DNA from: a virus
DNA: 31,026 nucleotides
IMG/VR virus record: IMGVR_UViG_3300032086_001968
Location: 1-31,026 of that record
Direction: 5' to 3' (one strand)
Shown here: one piece after another, positions 1 to 30,597 of the stretch
Layout: each line of letters starts with the position of its first letter
Position numbering within the stretch: the stretch's first letter is position 1
Program-made: the position numbers and the translations under genes
Notes under the pieces: generated by a model
Databases searched by the model: none
Told to the model about the DNA's origin: nothing
The model's input: the letters and a program-made list of their open reading frames with translations, nothing else

Positions 1-158
1 ACGTGATCGACGGTGCCTGCGCTGTTGAGTATTGCGGCAAGCTCATGCACGTCAACGCCGCCCTCGTCAAACGTGGGCAGGTCGTGCACTTCGGACCAGT
101 CGCCGTTCATCAGCGCCACGCCGCCTGTGCGGTATCCGCAATCAATGCCGACGATCAT
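1..158 (-). CDS. RuvC-like Holliday-junction nuclease, N-terminal part (truncated by window edge)
   Basis: Minus-strand reading from ATG at 158 to the left edge gives 52 residues beginning MIVGIDCGYRTGGVALMNG. The hydrophobic strand ending in an acidic residue (VGID at residues 3-6), followed by a Gly-rich turn and a second strand, is the RNase H/RuvC first catalytic motif. RuvC-family phage resolvases cut branched DNA before packaging. The start overlaps the end of the ribbon-helix-helix gene by 17 bp, so the two are probably co-transcribed. It cannot be told here whether the other catalytic acids are present, because the gene continues outside the window. It is also the only RuvC-type domain seen near the nuclease-less Tas-like protein at 3811-4518. 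RuvC-like is fairly sure; the exact family is not. Confidence 0.7.
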   Translation of the reverse strand, partial: MIVGIDCGYRTGGVALMNGDWSEVHDLPTFDEGGVDVHELAAILNSAGTVDH

Positions 159-306
159 CGAAGCTGTACCCCGCGTCTGTGAGTAAATCTTTAAGAGCCA
201 ACTCGACCAGCAATGACATGCTCATGCGGCTTGTCTCGCTGTACTTCTGAAGCGCCTCATATACGTCCTCGCGTATGCGCGGACCAATCTGCTTTAAATC
301 TTGCAT
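142..306 (-). CDS. Ribbon-helix-helix (Arc/CopG-type) DNA-binding protein
   Basis: A 54-residue protein. Residues 5-11 (KQIGPRI) would form the beta ribbon, residues 12-26 helix A and residues 29-42 helix B (SMSLLVELALKDLL), which is the standard ribbon-helix-helix layout and length. The start is ATG at 306, preceded by a strong AAAGGAG ribosome binding site at about 314-320. The promoter at 327-355 carries two GTTAAC-like boxes one helical turn apart, so autoregulation is plausible. Proteins of this fold act as dimers binding short, regularly spaced half-sites. The gene is followed by, and overlaps, the RuvC-like gene. The fold call is from sequence pattern only; the target DNA is inferred. 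Confidence 0.65.
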   Translation of the reverse strand: MQDLKQIGPRIREDVYEALQKYSETSRMSMSLLVELALKDLLTDAGYSFDDRRH

Positions 307-1937: not shown

Positions 1938-2320
1938 TACAGGCACTCATAGGGCCACTCGCAGAGCTCGCCGGCGGCTGGCTCAAAGGCAAAGCTGACA
2001 AGCAGGCGGCGGCTGCAAATCTCGCGCTTGTGGAGGCGGAGGCGAAGGCCACGATAATGAAGTCAGCCGCTACGTCGGAAGCAGATTGGGAGCGCATCAT
2101 GGCGCAGGGTAGCCAGTCAAGCTGGAAAGACGAGTGGCTGACTGGCTTATTTTCAATTCCACTTGTGCTTGTGTTTACAGGCGACAAGGGAAGAGAAATC
2201 GTCGCAAACGGCTTTGCGGCTTTAGAGATAATGCCGGAGTGGTATCAGTACACACTAGGTGTAATTGTCGCCGCCTCGTTTGGAATTAGATCAGCGACCA
2301 AGTTTTTCGGAAGGAAGTAA
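1934..2320 (+). CDS. Holin of the GTA 3TM type
   Basis: 128 residues. An N-terminal amphipathic/hydrophobic helix and an Ala-rich coiled region (to about 60) are followed by the conserved block SSWKDEWLTGLFSIPLVLVF, then EIMPEWYQYTLGVIVAASFGI and a basic end. This order matches the holin family first described from gene transfer agents (GTA_holin_3TM). It lies directly before the endolysin. With the 1728-1937 protein, the phage has two holin-like products, possibly a holin and an antiholin. Confidence 0.75.
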   Translation: MIQALIGPLAELAGGWLKGKADKQAAAANLALVEAEAKATIMKSAATSEADWERIMAQGSQSSWKDEWLTGLFSIPLVLVFTGDKGREIVANGFAALEIMPEWYQYTLGVIVAASFGIRSATKFFGRK

Positions 2321-2321
2321 A

Positions 2322-2708
2322 ATGGGTTTTAAGTTTGGCAAACGCTCGCTGGAGCGGCTGGAGGGCGTGCACGAGGATCTTGTTCGCGTAATGAAAACGG
2401 CGATTGACTGGAGCGACGACGTTGACTGGTGCATCATCGAAGGCTTGCGCACCGTCGAGCGGCAGAAGGAGCTCCTCGCCAAAGGCGCCTCGACTACCAT
2501 GCGCTCGCGGCACCTGACCGGCCACGCCATCGACATGGCGCCATACGTTGACGGGGCGATACGCTGGGACTGGCCGCTGTACCATAAGATCGCGCCCATC
2601 ATCAAGGAAGCCGCTGACCATGAGAAAGTCAAAATTGAGTGGGGCGGCGACTGGCGGAAGTTTCCAGACGGCCCGCACTGGCAATTGCCATGGAAGGATT
2701 ATCCATAG
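2322..2708 (+). CDS. Endolysin, M15-family zinc peptidase (L-Ala-D-Glu type)
   Basis: 128 residues from ATG 2322, preceded by GGAAGGAAG. It is a compact single-domain peptidase. The motif SRHLTGHAID (62-71) gives zinc ligands His64 and Asp71, Glu106 in IEWGGDW is the likely catalytic base, and His119 in GPHWQL is the third ligand. Members of this family (as in phage T5 endolysin) cut the peptide cross-bridge of Gram-negative peptidoglycan. There is no signal peptide, so export depends on the holins upstream. The 3' end overlaps the convergent HNH gene by 10 bp. Confidence 0.88.
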   Translation: MGFKFGKRSLERLEGVHEDLVRVMKTAIDWSDDVDWCIIEGLRTVERQKELLAKGASTTMRSRHLTGHAIDMAPYVDGAIRWDWPLYHKIAPIIKEAADHEKVKIEWGGDWRKFPDGPHWQLPWKDYP

Positions 2709-3049
2709 TGCTCGTTCCAGTGAAGGATGCGGTGACAGTTTGCGCATAAACACACGCACTTTGTCTCTGCTTCCTTGACCGCCGTGTTGTACTGCCCGCC
2801 CTTTACAAGTTGATAAACGGCACGGTTTTCTGGGTCATCTTTATTTATGTGATGAAAGTCTAGCGCAGCGGGGTGGCTGAAGCCGCAGTCGCTGCACGCC
2901 TGTTGAGCCTTCCACTCAATCCACTCTTTCTTTTGTCTCTTTCTGCGCTGGCGGTTCTTGGCGATAACTTTTTCTTTGTTCCTCTGATACCACTTTGAAC
3001 CGTACGCCTTAGCGTACGCAACGCGCTTTTCCTTGTCTTTATACGGCAA
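2699..3049 (-). CDS. HNH endonuclease-like protein
   Basis: Read from TTG 3049 the protein has 116 residues: a very basic N-terminal half (LPYKDKEKRVAYAKAYGSKWYQ then KNRQRRKRQKKE) and an HNH domain. The HNH signature is two CxxC zinc pairs (CSDC and CANC), DFHH between them, and CHRILHW at the end. The frame is open back to a GTG at 3085, but those codons lie inside a terminator hairpin (3052-3080). The TTG is preceded at good distance by GGGAAG and gives the usual family N-terminus (MPYKDKEK-like). Such genes are often homing or nicking endonucleases, or help packaging. It lies beyond the terminator of the accessory operon. Confidence 0.72.
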   Translation of the reverse strand: MPYKDKEKRVAYAKAYGSKWYQRNKEKVIAKNRQRRKRQKKEWIEWKAQQACSDCGFSHPAALDFHHINKDDPENRAVYQLVKGGQYNTAVKEAETKCVCLCANCHRILHWNEHYG

Positions 3050-3080
3050 AAAAACTTCCCACTTTGGCTGCGGGAAGTTT
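3048..3080 (-). terminator. Rho-independent terminator of the Tas-containing operon
   Basis: On the minus strand AAACTTCCC and GGGAAGTTT form a 9-bp stem with an 11-nt loop, followed by a run of seven T. It begins 19 bp after the stop of the 3099-3302 gene and would end transcription of the early/accessory operon. Its 3' arm also contains the GGGAAG that may serve the HNH gene. Confidence 0.8.
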
Positions 3081-3098
3081 ATCACTTTTTACAGATAC

Positions 3099-3302
3099 TT
3101 AAAACCAAGTTTTAATTTTATTATGCAGGGGCTTTGTTCTGCGCGGTCTGTTCTTACAATTGTTATTACGCTCGTATTGCCTTGCTTCTTTCATAAGCTC
3201 GTAGCGACGGTGTCCGCCGGACCGCTTGTAAAAGTCGGTCGCTCTCTCCCTGCACCGCTCAGCGTCTTCTAGCATAAGCAGGCGTAGCTCGTCCTCTGTC
3301 AT
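3099..3302 (-). CDS. Small charged helical protein, unknown function
   Basis: 67 residues: MTEDELRLLMLEDAERCRERATDFYKRSGG, then a basic C-terminal tail with NRPRRTKPLHNKIK. The start overlaps the preceding stop by four bases (ATGA at 3299-3302). The first 50 residues should be alpha-helical. No family is recognised. It is the last gene of the accessory operon. Confidence 0.6.
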   Translation of the reverse strand: MTEDELRLLMLEDAERCRERATDFYKRSGGHRRYELMKEARQYERNNNCKNRPRRTKPLHNKIKTWF

Positions 3303-3478
3303 ATCTTTACGCCGTCTTGTCTCAGCGTGTTGACGAAATTCTTTAGCTCTTCACGGGCGCGCCAGAGATCCTGTTGCACGTTTGGGTGCTTGTCGAGCCG
3401 GAAGCTCTCGTCTTGTAGCCGGTCCACCATTCGAGATAGAAACTCCAGATGGGCCTTGTCTGCGGGTGTTATTTCCAT
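3299..3478 (-). CDS. Small helical protein, unknown function
   Basis: 59 residues from ATG 3478 (MEITPADKAHLEFLSRMVDR), preceded by AAAGGGAAT. An ATG further upstream at 3544 is in frame but lacks a ribosome binding site. The product looks entirely helical with many charges. It overlaps the zinc-ribbon frame (3351-3581) by about 128 bp in the +1 frame, which is unusual in this compact operon. Of the two overlapping frames, this one looks more protein-like in the shared region. Confidence 0.6.
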   Translation of the reverse strand: MEITPADKAHLEFLSRMVDRLQDESFRLDKHPNVQQDLWRAREELKNFVNTLRQDGVKI

Positions 3479-3581
3479 TGTATTCCCTTTCCGCGTATAT
3501 ACGCATGTAACAATCACCACAGTAGTAGGTGAAATCTCTGACAATTATTAAGGCGTCATTTTCGCAACAATCACACTTCAT
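3351..3581 (-). CDS. Zinc-ribbon protein with extensive 3' overlap
   Basis: 76 residues as an open frame. The first 32 residues form a convincing small zinc-binding unit: C3 and C6 in KCDCCEN, then C21 and C24 in YYCGDCYM. The start overlaps the preceding stop (ATGA at 3578-3581). The rest (from about residue 36) is Gly/Arg/Pro-rich, lies over the next gene, and looks like non-native sequence. Either the protein has an odd tail, or a +1 frameshift near 3480-3490 joins the ribbon to the 59-residue downstream product. Confidence applies to the N-terminal part. Confidence 0.5.
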   Translation of the reverse strand: MKCDCCENDALIIVRDFTYYCGDCYMRIYAEREYNGNNTRRQGPSGVSISNGGPATRRELPARQAPKRATGSLARP

Positions 3582-3811
3582 GGTCTTGCCCTCGGTCTAA
3601 TTACAGATGATACAACATCAGTTTGAACGCAGGTCATGTAAATGTCATTACCATAGAGTTTGACGATGTGGTCATAGATCGGGTCAGCTAAGCCCTGATC
3701 CATGACTTGCTGGCAATGGCTTTCTGAGGCGTAGACGATGCTTGCGACGGGGGCTGCGTTGTGCGCAGCCAATTCGTAGTCGATCATCAGGACGGTAAAA
3801 AACTCAATCAT
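3578..3811 (-). CDS. Small protein of unknown function, coupled to the Tas-like gene
   Basis: 77 residues from ATG 3811 (MIEFFTVLMIDYELAAHNAA). The start shares its A with the stop codon of the Tas-like gene (TAATG), and a GGAGG site lies inside that gene. It has a hydrophobic strand-like N-terminus, two cysteines (SHCQQV and MTCVQ), and a helix at 35-60. It may be a secreted or membrane-associated small protein, but no clear signal peptide is visible. No family is recognised. Tight coupling makes it worth testing as a partner of the Tas-like protein. Confidence 0.6.
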   Translation of the reverse strand: MIEFFTVLMIDYELAAHNAAPVASIVYASESHCQQVMDQGLADPIYDHIVKLYGNDIYMTCVQTDVVSSVIRPRARP

Positions 3812-4518
3812 TACGCCACCTCCTTCCATTCGTTATACAGATCGCGCACCAAGCGTTTTGTCATGTACCTCATCGCACGATTATGAGCATGCCCATCCGT
3901 CTTCACGCGCTCGCGCTCATACTCCTTGCGCTTGTCGTAAATCACGCGATACGGTCCCGCGTTTTCATCCTTACCTTGCGACTTCAATAAGCTGTCTCCA
4001 ATCGTCCAAAACACGGAATGGCGTGACGGGTTGTATCCGTGCACCAAAGCCATCTCCGCGTTACTGTGCTTGCGCTGACGCTCTCCATCAATCACGGCAA
4101 GCCCCGCGCGTTTGTAAATTCCGTCAAGCTCTTTTTCGTATGCCATGAAGTCGCCAACCTCTCCGACAATGCCGGCTAAGCCTAAGTGACCGAAGCCTTT
4201 CACCTTATCGACAAATGACGCGGCAGGTAGTTTCTTGGCCAAATCGATAAGCAGCTTTTCAAAACTACCTCGCGCTTCCAGCAACGGCTCGCGGGCGTTA
4301 AAGAACGGCTGCGTTGCTGCGATATAAACGAATGCAGCCTCACCCTTTTTTAGCGCAGCAAACAGCTTGTTTGCTTCCTTAATATCGCCATCGCAAAACC
4401 CTCTGCAAACTGCCTTGATCTGCAAGACCAGCTTACCCTCTGCCCGAACCATGTTCTGACGGTTGCGCCATGTGCGGTAAATTTGTGCAATCGTTTCATC
4501 TTCGTATCTTTTGTCCAT
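3811..4518 (-). CDS. Tas-like (TIGR-associated) protein: IS110-C-terminal/Nop-like RNA-binding protein without nuclease domain
   Basis: 235 residues. The C-terminal half resembles the second domain of IS110-family transposases. KVKGFGHLGLAGIVGEVGDF (105-124) is a helix-hairpin-helix-like segment, followed by YKRAGLAV, then HGYNPSRHSVFWTIGDSL (160-177) and a terminal basic helix with HAHNRAMRYMTKRLVRDL (210-227). The N-terminal 100 residues are helical. The DEDD/RuvC half of true IS110 transposases is absent, and no HNH is present. In the TIGR-Tas family, Nop-domain proteins related to box C/D snoRNP Nop5 and to IS110 bind short dual-spacer RNAs from an adjacent array; nuclease-less forms are called TasA. 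The nine-unit hairpin array ends 22 bp upstream of this start, on the same strand, with AAAAAAGGAG as ribosome binding site. Assignment is by pattern recall and context. The main alternative is an orphan IS110-derived phage protein. Confidence 0.8.
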   Translation of the reverse strand: MDKRYEDETIAQIYRTWRNRQNMVRAEGKLVLQIKAVCRGFCDGDIKEANKLFAALKKGEAAFVYIAATQPFFNAREPLLEARGSFEKLLIDLAKKLPAASFVDKVKGFGHLGLAGIVGEVGDFMAYEKELDGIYKRAGLAVIDGERQRKHSNAEMALVHGYNPSRHSVFWTIGDSLLKSQGKDENAGPYRVIYDKRKEYERERVKTDGHAHNRAMRYMTKRLVRDLYNEWKEVA

Positions 4519-4540
4519 TTCTTTCTCCTTTTTTAGTTGC

Positions 4541-4584
4541 GAGGCGCAATTGCAATGGCATTTCTGCGAAAGGGGGGTGGCCTC
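4541..4584 (-). repeat. Array unit 1 (last transcribed, next to the Tas-like gene)
   Basis: Stem GAGGC/GCCTC, interior 4546-4579. Spacer A is CCCCCCTTT and spacer B is TTGCAATTG; core GCAGAAATGC. The low-complexity spacer A suggests a decaying or inactive unit. Confidence 0.8.
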
Positions 4585-4590
4585 TGGTTA

Positions 4591-4636
4591 TTGGGCGAAA
4601 GCATCTTAACATTTCTGCGTTGGTCTATTGGCCCAA
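4591..4636 (-). repeat. Array unit 2
   Basis: Stem TTGGGC/GCCCAA, interior 4597-4630. Spacer A is ATAGACCAA and spacer B is AGATGCTTT; the core is GCAGAAATGT, with a G-U apical pair in the minus RNA. Confidence 0.85.
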
Positions 4637-4643
4637 ATTCGGT

Positions 4644-4689
4644 GGGGGCGTAGGTAGAGTGGCATTTCTGCAAGCTGCCGATGGCCCCC
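4644..4689 (-). repeat. Array unit 3
   Basis: Stem GGGGGC/GCCCCC, interior 4650-4683. Spacer A is TCGGCAGCT and spacer B is CTCTACCTA; core GCAGAAATGC. Confidence 0.85.
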
Positions 4690-4698
4690 TGTGATTGG

Positions 4699-4755
4699 TT
4701 GGGGAGAGCGAAGACATGTTGGCATTTCTGTGTACTGCTACTGGCTCTCGCCCAA
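4699..4755 (-). repeat. Array unit 4
   Basis: Stem TTGGG-c-GAGAGC/GCTCTCCCCAA: 11 pairs with one bulged C. Interior 4710-4743. Spacer A is GTAGCAGTA and spacer B is ACATGTCTT; the core is ACAGAAATGC, losing one apical pair. Confidence 0.85.
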
Positions 4756-4801
4756 TGGTGCGCCTCAAGGTTGGCATTTCTGCACCGTCTGCTTGGCACC
4801 A
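4756..4801 (-). repeat. Array unit 5
   Basis: Stem TGGTGC/GCACCA, interior 4762-4795. Spacer A is AGCAGACGG and spacer B is ACCTTGAGG; core GCAGAAATGC. It abuts unit 4 with no linker. Confidence 0.85.
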
Positions 4802-4813
4802 AATAAAACTGGT

Positions 4814-4859
4814 GGGGGCGTGCCCCTGAGGGCATTGCTGCGTGTTTCCGTTGGCCCCC
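4814..4859 (-). repeat. Array unit 6
   Basis: Stem GGGGGC/GCCCCC, interior 4820-4853. Spacer A is ACGGAAACA and spacer B is TCAGGGGCA. The core is GCAGCAATGC: the tetraloop changes from GAAA to GCAA but remains GNRA. Confidence 0.85.
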
Positions 4860-4870
4860 TGTGATTGGTT

Positions 4871-4922
4871 GGGAAGGGTGTAGCAAGGTTGGCATTTCTG
4901 CGATATCTACTTGACCCTTCCC
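4871..4922 (-). repeat. Array unit 7
   Basis: Stem GGGAAGGGT/ACCCTTCCC (9 bp), interior 4880-4913. Spacer A is AGTAGATAT and spacer B is ACCTTGCTA; core GCAGAAATGC. Spacer B shares its first six bases with that of unit 5. Confidence 0.85.
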
Positions 4923-4926
4923 TTGA

Positions 4927-4968
4927 GTGCGCACCTTGAGTAGCATTTCTGCGTAAGGATTGTGGCAC
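4927..4968 (-). repeat. Array unit 8
   Basis: Stem GTGC/GCAC (the shortest; one more G-U pair possible outside), interior 4931-4964. Spacer A is CAATCCTTA and spacer B is CTCAAGGTG; core GCAGAAATGC. Confidence 0.8.
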
Positions 4969-4980
4969 CATATGATTGGT

Positions 4981-5026
4981 TGGGGCGCGCTCTTCTTGGC
5001 ATTTCTGCGCAACACGTTTGGCCCCA
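4981..5026 (-). repeat. Array unit 9 (first transcribed)
   Basis: Stem TGGGGC/GCCCCA, 34-nt interior at 4987-5020. In RNA sense, spacer A is AACGTGTTG and spacer B is AGAAGAGCG, around core GCAGAAATGC. Confidence 0.85.
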
Positions 5027-5032
5027 TAAACA

Positions 5033-5572
5033 TCATGACACCATGACGTCTGTGTGAATTGCCTCTACATCTTCGATCTTCCAGACATCCCGAACAATCT
5101 TATCTTCGGGCATCTTCTTTAAAATCGCAGACAGAAACTTATGGTTACGGCGATGCGTGTTCGCCTTCAAACCTTCTTTGTGCACGACGTGCTCCAGATC
5201 ACTCTTCATCGCGTCGCCAAGGCAGATGCCCAAGTCAGGTAGTGCGAAGTAATCAAAGATATTTTTCGCATAGAGCGCCGCCGTGTTTTTGAGAGACACG
5301 CTTGGAACGGAATGCTCGCCCTTTTGCAAGAGTACCTGCTTGGAGATCTTCTCAGCTTGCTTTCTAAAGCTGGCACGATTTCCCCGCGACCTTGCACTTA
5401 CATCCTCAGACGCAATGCGCTGCAAGTAACGTGCGGTCGCCGCATCGCGTAATTCCTTGTCGTTGCGTAACATCTGAAGATATTTTTCCGCAGCTTCTTT
5501 CTGCGTTTTAGAGCCATCCCAAGCCTTATCAATGGCTTCCAAAACAATCGGGTTTCTCATTTGATAGGTCAT
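5033..5572 (-). CDS. Protein of unknown function upstream of the array
   Basis: 179 residues from ATG 5572 (MTYQMRNPIVLEAIDKAWDG). This start overlaps the stop of the preceding gene by four bases; a GTG at 5581 is in frame but less likely. The protein is basic and helical, with a KQAEKISKQVLLQKGEHS stretch and a C-terminal segment HRRNHKFLSAILKKMPEDK. No family is recognised. The stop is 7 bp before the first hairpin of the array, so gene and array share a transcript. A nucleic-acid-binding role is possible from charge alone. Confidence 0.65.
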   Translation of the reverse strand: MTYQMRNPIVLEAIDKAWDGSKTQKEAAEKYLQMLRNDKELRDAATARYLQRIASEDVSARSRGNRASFRKQAEKISKQVLLQKGEHSVPSVSLKNTAALYAKNIFDYFALPDLGICLGDAMKSDLEHVVHKEGLKANTHRRNHKFLSAILKKMPEDKIVRDVWKIEDVEAIHTDVMVS

Positions 5573-5664
5573 AGCCACCACCCCGCGCTGATACCTGTTA
5601 CAAAAACCATTGCCATGAGTATGACGATGCCGAAGATGATCCAGTCTTGCTTATCGATATTCAT
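5569..5664 (-). CDS. Single-span membrane micropeptide
   Basis: 31 residues, MNIDKQDWIIFGIVILMAMV then FVTGISAGWWL, essentially one transmembrane helix. The start is backed by a very strong GGAGGAGGGC site and a four-base overlap with the preceding stop (ATGA); the stop overlaps the next start in the same way. The function is unknown. Such peptides in early phage operons are often host-membrane effectors. Confidence 0.6.
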   Translation of the reverse strand: MNIDKQDWIIFGIVILMAMVFVTGISAGWWL

Positions 5665-5951
5665 TTGCCCTCCTCCCAAGGTGCGCGGCTCAATGTGACC
5701 TGCATGTTTTCCTGATGTTTCTTTTGGCTGCCGAGCGCGACCTTCGTGTTGAAGTCAACGCGAGGGTGCGGCTTGATTGGCGGAAACGCATTGGCGACAG
5801 TCTCAGGGCGCTCGTAAATCATTACGGAAGAACGCTTGGCGGGATACGGCCGGCCATAAAGTAAAGTGTCCAATTCTTCGAGGGTGTCGGCGTTGACCGA
5901 CAGCCTCTCGTTTGTACCAGATTGAATAAATTCAGCGAAGAAGCGTTTCAT
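5661..5951 (-). CDS. Unknown small protein
   Basis: 96 residues, MKRFFAEFIQSGTNERLSVN at the start. The first 50 residues look like an alpha/beta unit (FAEFIQSG, then TLEELDTLLYG). The rest is Pro-rich (FPPIKPHPRVDFN) and ends in a polar tail. Its ATG shares a base with the stop of the upstream gene (TGATG). No family is recognised. Confidence 0.65.
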   Translation of the reverse strand: MKRFFAEFIQSGTNERLSVNADTLEELDTLLYGRPYPAKRSSVMIYERPETVANAFPPIKPHPRVDFNTKVALGSQKKHQENMQVTLSRAPWEEGK

Positions 5952-6517
5952 CAGTACGCCTCCCCGTTTACTGTGACTTTGGTAGGGCGCTGGATGATGG
6001 TTTGCCTTACGCCGTCGCGCTCGCCGTGCTCTTTAACCTTGGCCATGCAAACCACTTCGGCGCCCTTAGTCCAGCATTGTGATCCTTTGTAGACGATGAC
6101 ATTTCCATGAATATCGCGGCAGAGGTTGATGTAGCTATGCCCAAAGTCATGGTAAAAACAGATCGTGTGGCTGACTGTAAGGCGCCATTCTTGGCGCTCT
6201 CCGACTACACCTACGTGCTGGCTTCCAGCATCCCTCGCAGCCCACTCTGCGCGTCTTTTAGCGTCGCCTTCGATGCTTTTACGGACTGCTTTGGTTTGGC
6301 CCTCAGTCAACGCACCCCACTCATGGATGGCTTCCTTCATGTCACCCCAGAAGCCTTTGTGGCCGTTGTCATAGCTTTTGCAGTTGATGTAAGTTTCCAA
6401 CTCGTCAGCGTCAGGGTTTGCCTCAAGCCACTTTTTATAACGTGTTTTGCTGGCGTTTGCTTTAATTTTGTTTTGGATTGCGCGCTCATAAGCAGCTTCG
6501 TTTTCGATGTAGGGCAT
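5951..6517 (-). CDS. Phage protein with possible OB-fold C-terminal domain
   Basis: 188 residues from ATG 6517 (MPYIENEAAYERAIQNKIKA), preceded by GGAGAG; an ATG 12 bases further upstream lacks a site. The N-terminal 100 residues are helical and charged. From about residue 100 the sequence GVVGERQEWRLTVSHTICFY, then GNVIVYKGSQCW, then CMAKVKEHGERDGVRQTIIQ resembles a beta-barrel block found at the end of several phage proteins, with the five-strand spacing of an OB fold. A single-stranded nucleic acid binding role is possible but only inferred. It is the first gene of the operon that carries the array and Tas-like gene. Confidence 0.6.
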   Translation of the reverse strand: MPYIENEAAYERAIQNKIKANASKTRYKKWLEANPDADELETYINCKSYDNGHKGFWGDMKEAIHEWGALTEGQTKAVRKSIEGDAKRRAEWAARDAGSQHVGVVGERQEWRLTVSHTICFYHDFGHSYINLCRDIHGNVIVYKGSQCWTKGAEVVCMAKVKEHGERDGVRQTIIQRPTKVTVNGEAY

Positions 6518-6541
6518 TTTTCTCTCCACTCCTGATACCCC

Positions 6542-6571: not shown

Positions 6572-6601
6572 AAAAAAATGGCCCCGCTCGAAAGCAGGGC
6601 C
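6572..6601 (-). terminator. Terminator of the late structural operon
   Basis: On the minus strand GGCCCTGCT-TTCG-AGCGGGGCC forms a 9-bp stem (one G-U pair) with a TTCG loop, followed by ATTTTTTT. It isolates the accessory operon from late read-through. Confidence 0.8.
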
Positions 6602-6680
6602 AGTCCAACAGGGAGGAGAAGTAAAAGAACAACCTTCTACACCAATAGCTTTACACATACTTCACAAGAAGTACAATAAT

Positions 6681-29108: not shown

Positions 29109-29189
29109 GTACCACAGAGTTTGCGAAAAACTAAGTGGACTTTTTCGCAAACTTTTTTCGTTTTTCGCAAACTTTTTTCGTTTTAGGGG
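29104..29189 (+). terminator. Repeated terminator, copy 2, with internal 20-bp duplication
   Basis: Same stem as copy 1: 29119-29130 with 29141-29152. The 20 bp TTTTTCGCAAACTTTTTTCG at 29141-29160 are repeated exactly at 29161-29180, offering two competing 3' arms. Located just before the promoter of the plus-strand island. Confidence 0.75.
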
Positions 29190-29602: not shown

Positions 29603-30004
29603 ATGACTACAGCAACTTTCATCTACAACGACGGCGGACGCAAGGACGCAGGTTACAAAGGCACCGCGGGAGACTGCGCCGCACGGGCGATGGCCATCGC
29701 GCTGGAGATCCCATACAAGCAGGCATACGATGAACTCGCCAGAGCGCATCGCGCACGCACTGGTCAAAAGACCGCGCGCAAAGGCATCTACAAAGATGAC
29801 TTTGAAACAGTGCTCGCGCGCTACGGATGGGTATGGCGCCCAGCGCCAAAGCTCGACGGGCGCAAAGCGCGATGCGGCGACATGCCAAAGGGCAAAGTCA
29901 TCGCGCGCATGGCGCGCCACTACGCGGCCGTCATTGACGGCGTCGTGCACGATAGCTGGGATAGCACCGATAAAATGATTTATGGCTATTGGTGCGCAGC
30001 CTAA
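29603..30004 (+). CDS. Papain-like cysteine-protease-fold protein (putative)
   Basis: 133 residues from ATG 29603 with a GGAGG site. Key features are TAGDCAARAMAIAL, with a Cys in the position of the catalytic nucleophile at the start of a helix, a second helix (YKQAYDELARAH), and RHYAAVIDGVVHDSWDS carrying His and Asp. I recognise this protein in many phages. The fold assignment is from the Cys-helix and His-strand order; its substrate is unknown. The 3' end overlaps the convergent oxygenase gene by four bases. Confidence 0.65.
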   Translation: MTTATFIYNDGGRKDAGYKGTAGDCAARAMAIALEIPYKQAYDELARAHRARTGQKTARKGIYKDDFETVLARYGWVWRPAPKLDGRKARCGDMPKGKVIARMARHYAAVIDGVVHDSWDSTDKMIYGYWCAA

Positions 30005-30597
30005 TTCGGCACCTCGGTGAGCCAAGTCGTCAATATGTACTTGGCTTGCTTTCCCAACGGGGGATTGCCGCGGTGCGTATACGTCCAGTCAGCCGGCCAA
30101 ATGAGGGCTCTGTTCCTCTTTGGCTTTATGCGTTTGGATTGATACAAAAACTCAGTCTCACCCCCCTCGTCCACGTCGTTCAGGTAAAGCTGCACCACAA
30201 GCTGCCTCTGAGGCACCGGCTCAAAACCCTCGCAATGCCACGAATGAAACCCGCCGCTGGGTTTAACGCGCTTCATCTTAACCAGCATTGCCGTCATGCG
30301 GGGCTGCTTTAATATATTAAACTTATCGACATACAGCGGATACATCTCCTCCCACAAAATCTTGTAAAAGTAGCTCGCAAAATTATCTGGCATACGCTGA
30401 ACAAGGGCCGGATCATTAAAAAACACCTCGTCCATGTCACGATCCAGCTTATCGTCCGACGACGGCTGCGCCATGCCATCGCGGTCGCACTTCTCAAAGA
30501 AGTTAATGACAGCGTCTATGTAGCTCTCGTCAAAAAAATTATCGTATATCCCGATAAACTCATCAATCGTGTAACGCTTCTGCACTTCCTCTGACAT
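30001..30597 (-). CDS. 2-oxoglutarate/Fe(II)-dependent oxygenase
   Basis: 198 residues. VKPSGGFHSWHCEGFEPVPQ gives the iron-binding His121-x-Glu123, LYLNDVDEGGETEF is the conserved beta strand/turn, and His175 in YTHRGNPP is the distal ligand. Glu instead of Asp in the HxD motif is a tolerated variant. This is the prolyl-4-hydroxylase-like type common in marine phages. The target (protein or DNA) is not known. It lies directly downstream of the terminase gene. Confidence 0.8.
   Translation of the reverse strand: MSEEVQKRYTIDEFIGIYDNFFDESYIDAVINFFEKCDRDGMAQPSSDDKLDRDMDEVFFNDPALVQRMPDNFASYFYKILWEEMYPLYVDKFNILKQPRMTAMLVKMKRVKPSGGFHSWHCEGFEPVPQRQLVVQLYLNDVDEGGETEFLYQSKRIKPKRNRALIWPADWTYTHRGNPPLGKQAKYILTTWLTEVPN

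Follow-up and report, generated by a model that had tools for sequence, protein, structure and literature searches.

The 31,026-base virus record IMGVR_UViG_3300032086_001968 of IMG/VR, analysed over its full length and referred to here as the window, carries a TIGR-Tas (tandem interspaced guide RNA) system in which a nuclease-less Tas protein, TasA, stands next to a stem-loop guide array, and which is most likely an RNA-guided, non-cutting DNA binder, probably directed against rival mobile elements. The window comes from a marine tailed phage with a portal and a major capsid protein of the SU10 type, and the relatives of its tasA gene in IMG/VR include a marine set. Because the named relatives of the portal include phages of Sinorhizobium, Rhizobium, Sulfitobacter, Octadecabacter and Pelagibacter, the host is likely alphaproteobacterial.

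TasA and its stem-loop guide array

Homology searches confirm the minus-strand open reading frame tasA as coding for a nuclease-less Tas protein. The frame is kept in 53 IMG/VR loci at 67-100% identity, with relatives at 33-54% identity in additional phages and prophages, and is therefore a genuine gene. Run alone with phmmer against all PDB sequences, TasA finds a sole match, 9mty_A (E=1.8e-9), which the fold search names as TIGR-TasR; a profile of 17 TasA relatives matches TasR at E=9.5e-12, and a more diverse nine-sequence profile searched against the whole PDB returns only TasR (2e-17) and TasH (6.4e-7). TasA residues 69-233 align with TasR residues 140-295, beyond the nuclease region of TasR, and a Pfam scan of TasA and its relatives yields no RuvC, HNH or DEDD domain. 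A first-pass annotation of the window had called the protein a TasA type, related to the RNA-binding half of IS110 and Nop proteins and devoid of a nuclease, and had proposed profile searches as a check; at the level of sequence, the type, the IS110/Nop relationship and the missing nuclease are all borne out. TasA also matches PHROG 4285, 'transposase' (E=1.4e-15). The PHROG match and the weak Transposase_20 matches in Pfam (two of nine TasA relatives, best E 0.013) are the evidence for taking the gene as a degenerate IS110-family element that has lost its nuclease half, a very improbable and disfavoured explanation, as scores of phages keep the gene intact, along with an array of two-spacer units and a constant partner, and its strongest relatives are TasR and TasH.

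Comparison of predicted structures was also proposed in the first-pass annotation. The AlphaFold2 (AF2) model of TasA has an overall predicted local distance difference test score (pLDDT) of 60 and contains two confident long helices, at residues 8-41 and 63-96. Searched with this weak model, Foldseek places TasH chains at ranks 1-3, 5, 8 and 9 of 350,542 PDB chains, none of them significant (best E 0.083), and the VIA-align rows, which lie mostly within residues 3-119, list TasH, IS621, Nop5 and TasR side by side with proteins that are unrelated but rich in long helices. Because the C-terminal half is too poorly modelled to assess a Nop fold, the Foldseek matches are not significant and VIA-align does not discriminate, the identity of TasA rests on sequence homology and not on the model.

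The array directly upstream of tasA (Table 1) is a stem-loop TIGR array of the conserved-loop form described in PMC12045711; the first-pass annotation had rightly placed a guide array next to the gene, and had overlooked both its stem-loop kind and the conserved gene on its other side. Each of the nine units consists of a 5' stem of 5-9 bp, YCA (box C), a 9-nt spacer A, a 13-nt loop repeat close to CGCAGAAATGCCA, a 9-nt spacer B, C[GA] (box D) and a 3' stem. Stems vary from unit to unit and always pair, while the loop is constant; the dual-repeat form is excluded for the window array, whose edges are variable stems with no constant 8-12 nt edge repeats. An Rfam scan of positions 3500-5700 found no family near its gathering score.

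The same anatomy recurs in related loci, in which we parsed 469 units and found spacers of exactly 9 and 9 nt in 444. Units there were selected partly by stem pairing, so the pairing of stems among them is partly built in, and this applies to the co-variation of the edge box C and box D bases (C-G 279, T-A 110, T-G 64). The pair between box D and box C of the loop, which had no part in unit selection, survives in 286 of the 298 distinct units, against 252 expected from shuffles, by way of G-C, A-T and G-T. Compensatory changes span about 300 units of relatives.

Table 1. Positions of the system's components and of other features (window coordinates unless contigs or residues are given; spacers as A and B)
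Feature	Position	Strand	Details
tasA, nuclease-less Tas protein	3811-4518	-	ATG start, 235 amino acids
TasA N-terminal part	residues about 8-96		long-helix (coiled-coil)
TasA C-terminal part	residues about 100-235		Tas/IS110-like, DGHAHNRA motif
Stem-loop TIGR array	4541-5026	-	nine units
Unit 1	4981-5026	-	A=AACGTGTTG (5010-5018), B=AGAAGAGCG (4988-4996)
Unit 2	4926-4969	-	A=CAATCCTTA, B=CTCAAGGTG
Unit 3	4871-4922	-	A=AGTAGATAT, B=ACCTTGCTA; perfect 9-bp stem
Unit 4	4814-4859	-	A=ACGGAAACA, B=TCAGGGGCA
Unit 5	4756-4801	-	A=AGCAGACGG, B=ACCTTGAGG
Unit 6	4704-4749	-	A=GTAGCAGTA, B=ACATGTCTT
Unit 7	4644-4689	-	A=TCGGCAGCT, B=CTCTACCTA
Unit 8	4591-4636	-	A=ATAGACCAA, B=AGATGCTTT
Unit 9	4541-4584	-	A=CCCCCCTTT, B=TTGCAATTG
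P2, conserved partner gene	5033-5572	-	179 amino acids from conserved ATG at 5572; 182 from GTG at 5581
Open frame through array	4533-5036	-	167 codons; starts at ATG overlapping P2 stop, ends just before tasA
HNH-like open reading frame	2699-3085	-	CxxC, DFHH and CANCH motifs by eye; no Pfam call
Lipoprotein-gene match	contigs L213-L215, L218, L222, L224-L226		GAAGTGACC-TG-CAATCCCCG
M15_4 peptidase gene	2265-2708	+	PF13539; likely endolysin; strand opposite to tasA
Terminator-like hairpin	6579-6602	-	10 pairs, then T-run; upstream of gene 5951-6529
Repeat	29141-29184		20-nt TTTTTCGCAAACTTTTTTCG, 2.2 perfect copies
2OG-Fe(II) oxygenase gene	30001-30597	-	PF13640, E=4e-12

P2, guide turnover and the open frame

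The gene order is P2 - array - tasA, with P2 directly upstream of the array, and this linkage extends far beyond the window. Among 77 distinct TasA loci, P2 lies upstream in 68, the upstream DNA is missing in six and P2 is undetected in three (L209, L210 and the Microcystis phage L056), which amounts to 68 of the 71 testable loci. Marine relatives have P2 whenever the contig extends far enough, and a P2 profile finds it also upstream of divergent TasA (identity down to about 33%), carried by phages as well as by genome contigs from Rhizobium, Shinella, Metarhizobium, Bosea, Magnetospirillum, Methylobacterium and others. That profile was built partly from the same loci, where its E-values are not independent; a profile made from marine sequences alone matches L109 (1.6e-12), L110 (2.7e-4) and, weakly, L114 (0.005). 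A separate search with P2 as its starting point recovered TasA in 49 loci, 14 contigs ending at most 1.2 kb from P2 and no locus truly lacking TasA; searches of phage and plasmid records matched P2 in one Rhizobium phage and nowhere else. TasA, array and P2 remain together while the neighbouring genes change.

P2 is predicted to be mostly helical, with an AF2 model (pLDDT 69) too weak for fold claims and no significant match among PDB folds. Searches of Pfam, PHROGs and the PDB give it no convincing family (best E 0.0026, in PHROGs with single relatives), no match to ParB in Pfam or the PDB and no match to nuclease families. P2 is most likely a working partner of TasA, be it an adapter, a factor that processes or loads the guide RNA, or the effector that TasA lacks. 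The last of these roles touches on a suggestion of the first-pass annotation, that TasA might act with a nuclease in trans. On that explanation TasA with its guides would recruit a cutting enzyme, for which the candidates are P2 and an HNH-like protein whose gene lies some 0.7 kb downstream of tasA. We regard such recruitment as unlikely: P2 is nearly always present but has no nuclease family match, and the HNH-like frame, despite its CxxC, DFHH and CANCH motifs, has relatives in 10 of the loci searched and is undetected in most TasA loci, which lends the suggestion weak support.

The guides change fast. Where TasA identity is 99% or more, phages have on average 14% of their guide pairs in common, a figure that leaves out pairs of phages with identical arrays, and a record with the window's array (L002) has no guide pair in common with either of two relatives at 98% TasA identity. 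Several contigs end inside the array, a pattern that variation of the array within populations would produce. Certain guides are common across clades or differ by single changes, and some guide pairs are common to phages whose TasA proteins differ by about 30%; changes between related guides show no codon phase (p 0.67-0.90).

The frame that runs open through the window's array (Table 1) has counterparts in relatives with long arrays (L007, L010, L012, L013, L014, L016, L021 and L047), where it stays open for 200-270 codons, a length reached by none of 40 dinucleotide shuffles, although such shuffles do not preserve the repeat structure and the loci compared are related. Stop codons occur at 0.013 per codon in the sense frame through the array, against 0.028 and 0.022 in the other two, and inside the spacers alone they are also rarer in that frame (0.0375 against 0.062). 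The open frame is not found in all clades, many of L026-L043 being without it, and we treat it as a lead: translation through the array could stop Rho from terminating the transcript before tasA. In several rhizobial loci the reading frame of tasA itself contains array units.

Guide targets and a proposed mechanism

We searched for targets of the form A + gap + reverse-complement(B), an order that we worked out from the rule on 8-nt 3' overhangs in PMC12045711, allowing gaps of 0-6 and at most two mismatches and taking re-paired A and B spacers as controls. Across 0.5-1.7 Mb of related phage DNA the guide pairs show no excess over these controls, four exact scans of IMG/VR gave 7, 1, 14 and 7 matches, about chance level, and two guide pairs from Rhizobiaceae prophage-type loci found no match in 394 genomes each. 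One guide pair, with a 2-nt gap, recurs in the same small lipoprotein gene of eight phage contigs (Table 1); this match is indistinguishable from chance, since other gaps give similar clusters and the remaining guides match these contigs no more often than chance predicts. An apparent preference for 2-nt gaps rests largely on one low-complexity pair.

The DNA of the TasA phages themselves, as far as the partial sequences extend, contains no exact guide match in the expected geometry, which fits guides aimed elsewhere. This result bears on whether the system instead regulates genes of the phage or its host, or aids DNA recombination, a role recalling the RNA-guided help to integrases that has been suggested from the DNA bend (PMC12045711). 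The existence of copies in bacterial genomes and the guide pairs common to phages with TasA about 30% apart speak for such a role; the lack of exact self-matches and the almost complete difference in guides between close relatives, unlike what a fixed regulator would show, speak against it, and we consider it rather doubtful.

We favour action against rival elements, in which P2, guide array and tasA would form one operon whose array transcript is cut into stem-closed units. By analogy with tested relatives, a TasA dimer, joined via its coiled-coil helices, would grip both box C/D motifs of one unit. A single DNA site of 18-20 bp would then pair with spacer A on one strand and with spacer B on the other, and would be held unwound and bent without being cut. 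Bound TasA could block transcription or replication of its target, presumably a rival phage or another mobile element that shares its host, probably an alphaproteobacterium. The programmable DNA binding that the first-pass annotation predicted would follow from the tested relatives TasR, TasH and FpTasA (PMC12045711), and RNA binding would be expected on the same grounds. Several points weigh against this reading: the C-terminal half of the TasA model, with pLDDT mostly below 50, leaves the Nop fold unconfirmed by structure; binding and processing are predictions; the blocking effect and the rival targets are argued from analogy; and the searches of related phage DNA, of IMG/VR and of the genomes scanned brought up no convincing target. 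More tentatively, stem-loop TIGR-TasA systems may be three-part machines. P2 would then be obligate, whether it acts as effector, loads guides or maintains the array; the lack of stops in the array would reflect translation across it; and guide renewal would be quick enough to keep pace with changing targets. Such systems would amount to a programmable, non-cutting weapon between mobile elements that operates without known adaptation genes.

Copies of the system occur in isolates of Rhizobium esperanzae, Shinella sumterensis, Bosea vaviloviae and Magnetospirillum molischianum and in Rhizobium phage RHph_X2_25, so that it is testable in culture. In that phage (L055, MW960032.1), positions 2738-4804 hold the same order of P2, stem-loop units and TasA, with more units inside the N-terminal frame of TasA and after the gene. 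Microcystis phage Mvi-JY20 (L056) encodes a distant TasA at 2782-3507, annotated only as hypothetical, followed at 3522-3838 by an apparent dual-repeat TIGR array (ATGCGAGCC / ACGAAACCC). The role of TasA without a nuclease and the gain of guides by TIGR arrays are open questions named in PMC12045711; the presence of P2 in 68 of 71 loci offers a direct handle on the first, and the 280 distinct guide pairs collected from closely related phages, with their very fast turnover, are data on the second.

Relation to known TIGR-Tas and IS110 systems

Since nuclease-less TasA with stem-loop arrays, conserved-loop arrays included, has already been reported (PMC12045711), the core of TasA and array belongs to a known kind. 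Tas proteins bind TIGR guide RNAs (tigRNAs), and TasR and TasH act on double-stranded DNA through both spacers (PMC12045711). The main text of that study describes TasA as having no 'clear associations with other proteins' and names as its only partner a ParB-like protein, for dual-repeat TasA; what goes beyond that main text is the P2 partner, the speed at which guides turn over and, in many loci, a frame that stays open across the array.

One close likeness is to the stem-loop TasA of a Peromyscus leucopus gut contig (PMC12045711), which is nuclease-less, has a coiled-coil region and an RNA-binding C-terminal domain, and is served by units with two short spacers, box C/D motifs and variable palindromic stems; here, by contrast, the array lies between two genes with the P2 family alongside, whereas the main text names no partner there. 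TIGR-TasR and TasH (PDB 9mty; 9w02-9w04) share with our system a homologous coiled-coil and C-terminal RNA-binding part and two-spacer guides, but begin with a nuclease domain at the N-terminus, RuvC or HNH, and in the characterised cases use dual-repeat arrays, neither of which is seen here. The TasA-TasParB operons (PMC12045711) likewise join tasA to a second gene, sometimes with the array between them, but those arrays are dual-repeat, and searches of Pfam and the PDB with P2 returned no ParB, though a distant link between the two may exist. The RNA-binding half is also distantly related to that of IS110 transposases such as IS621 with its bridge RNA, from which the present system differs in having a 235-amino-acid protein that lacks the DEDD domain and matches over its C-terminal half only, and a guide array in place of one bridge RNA.
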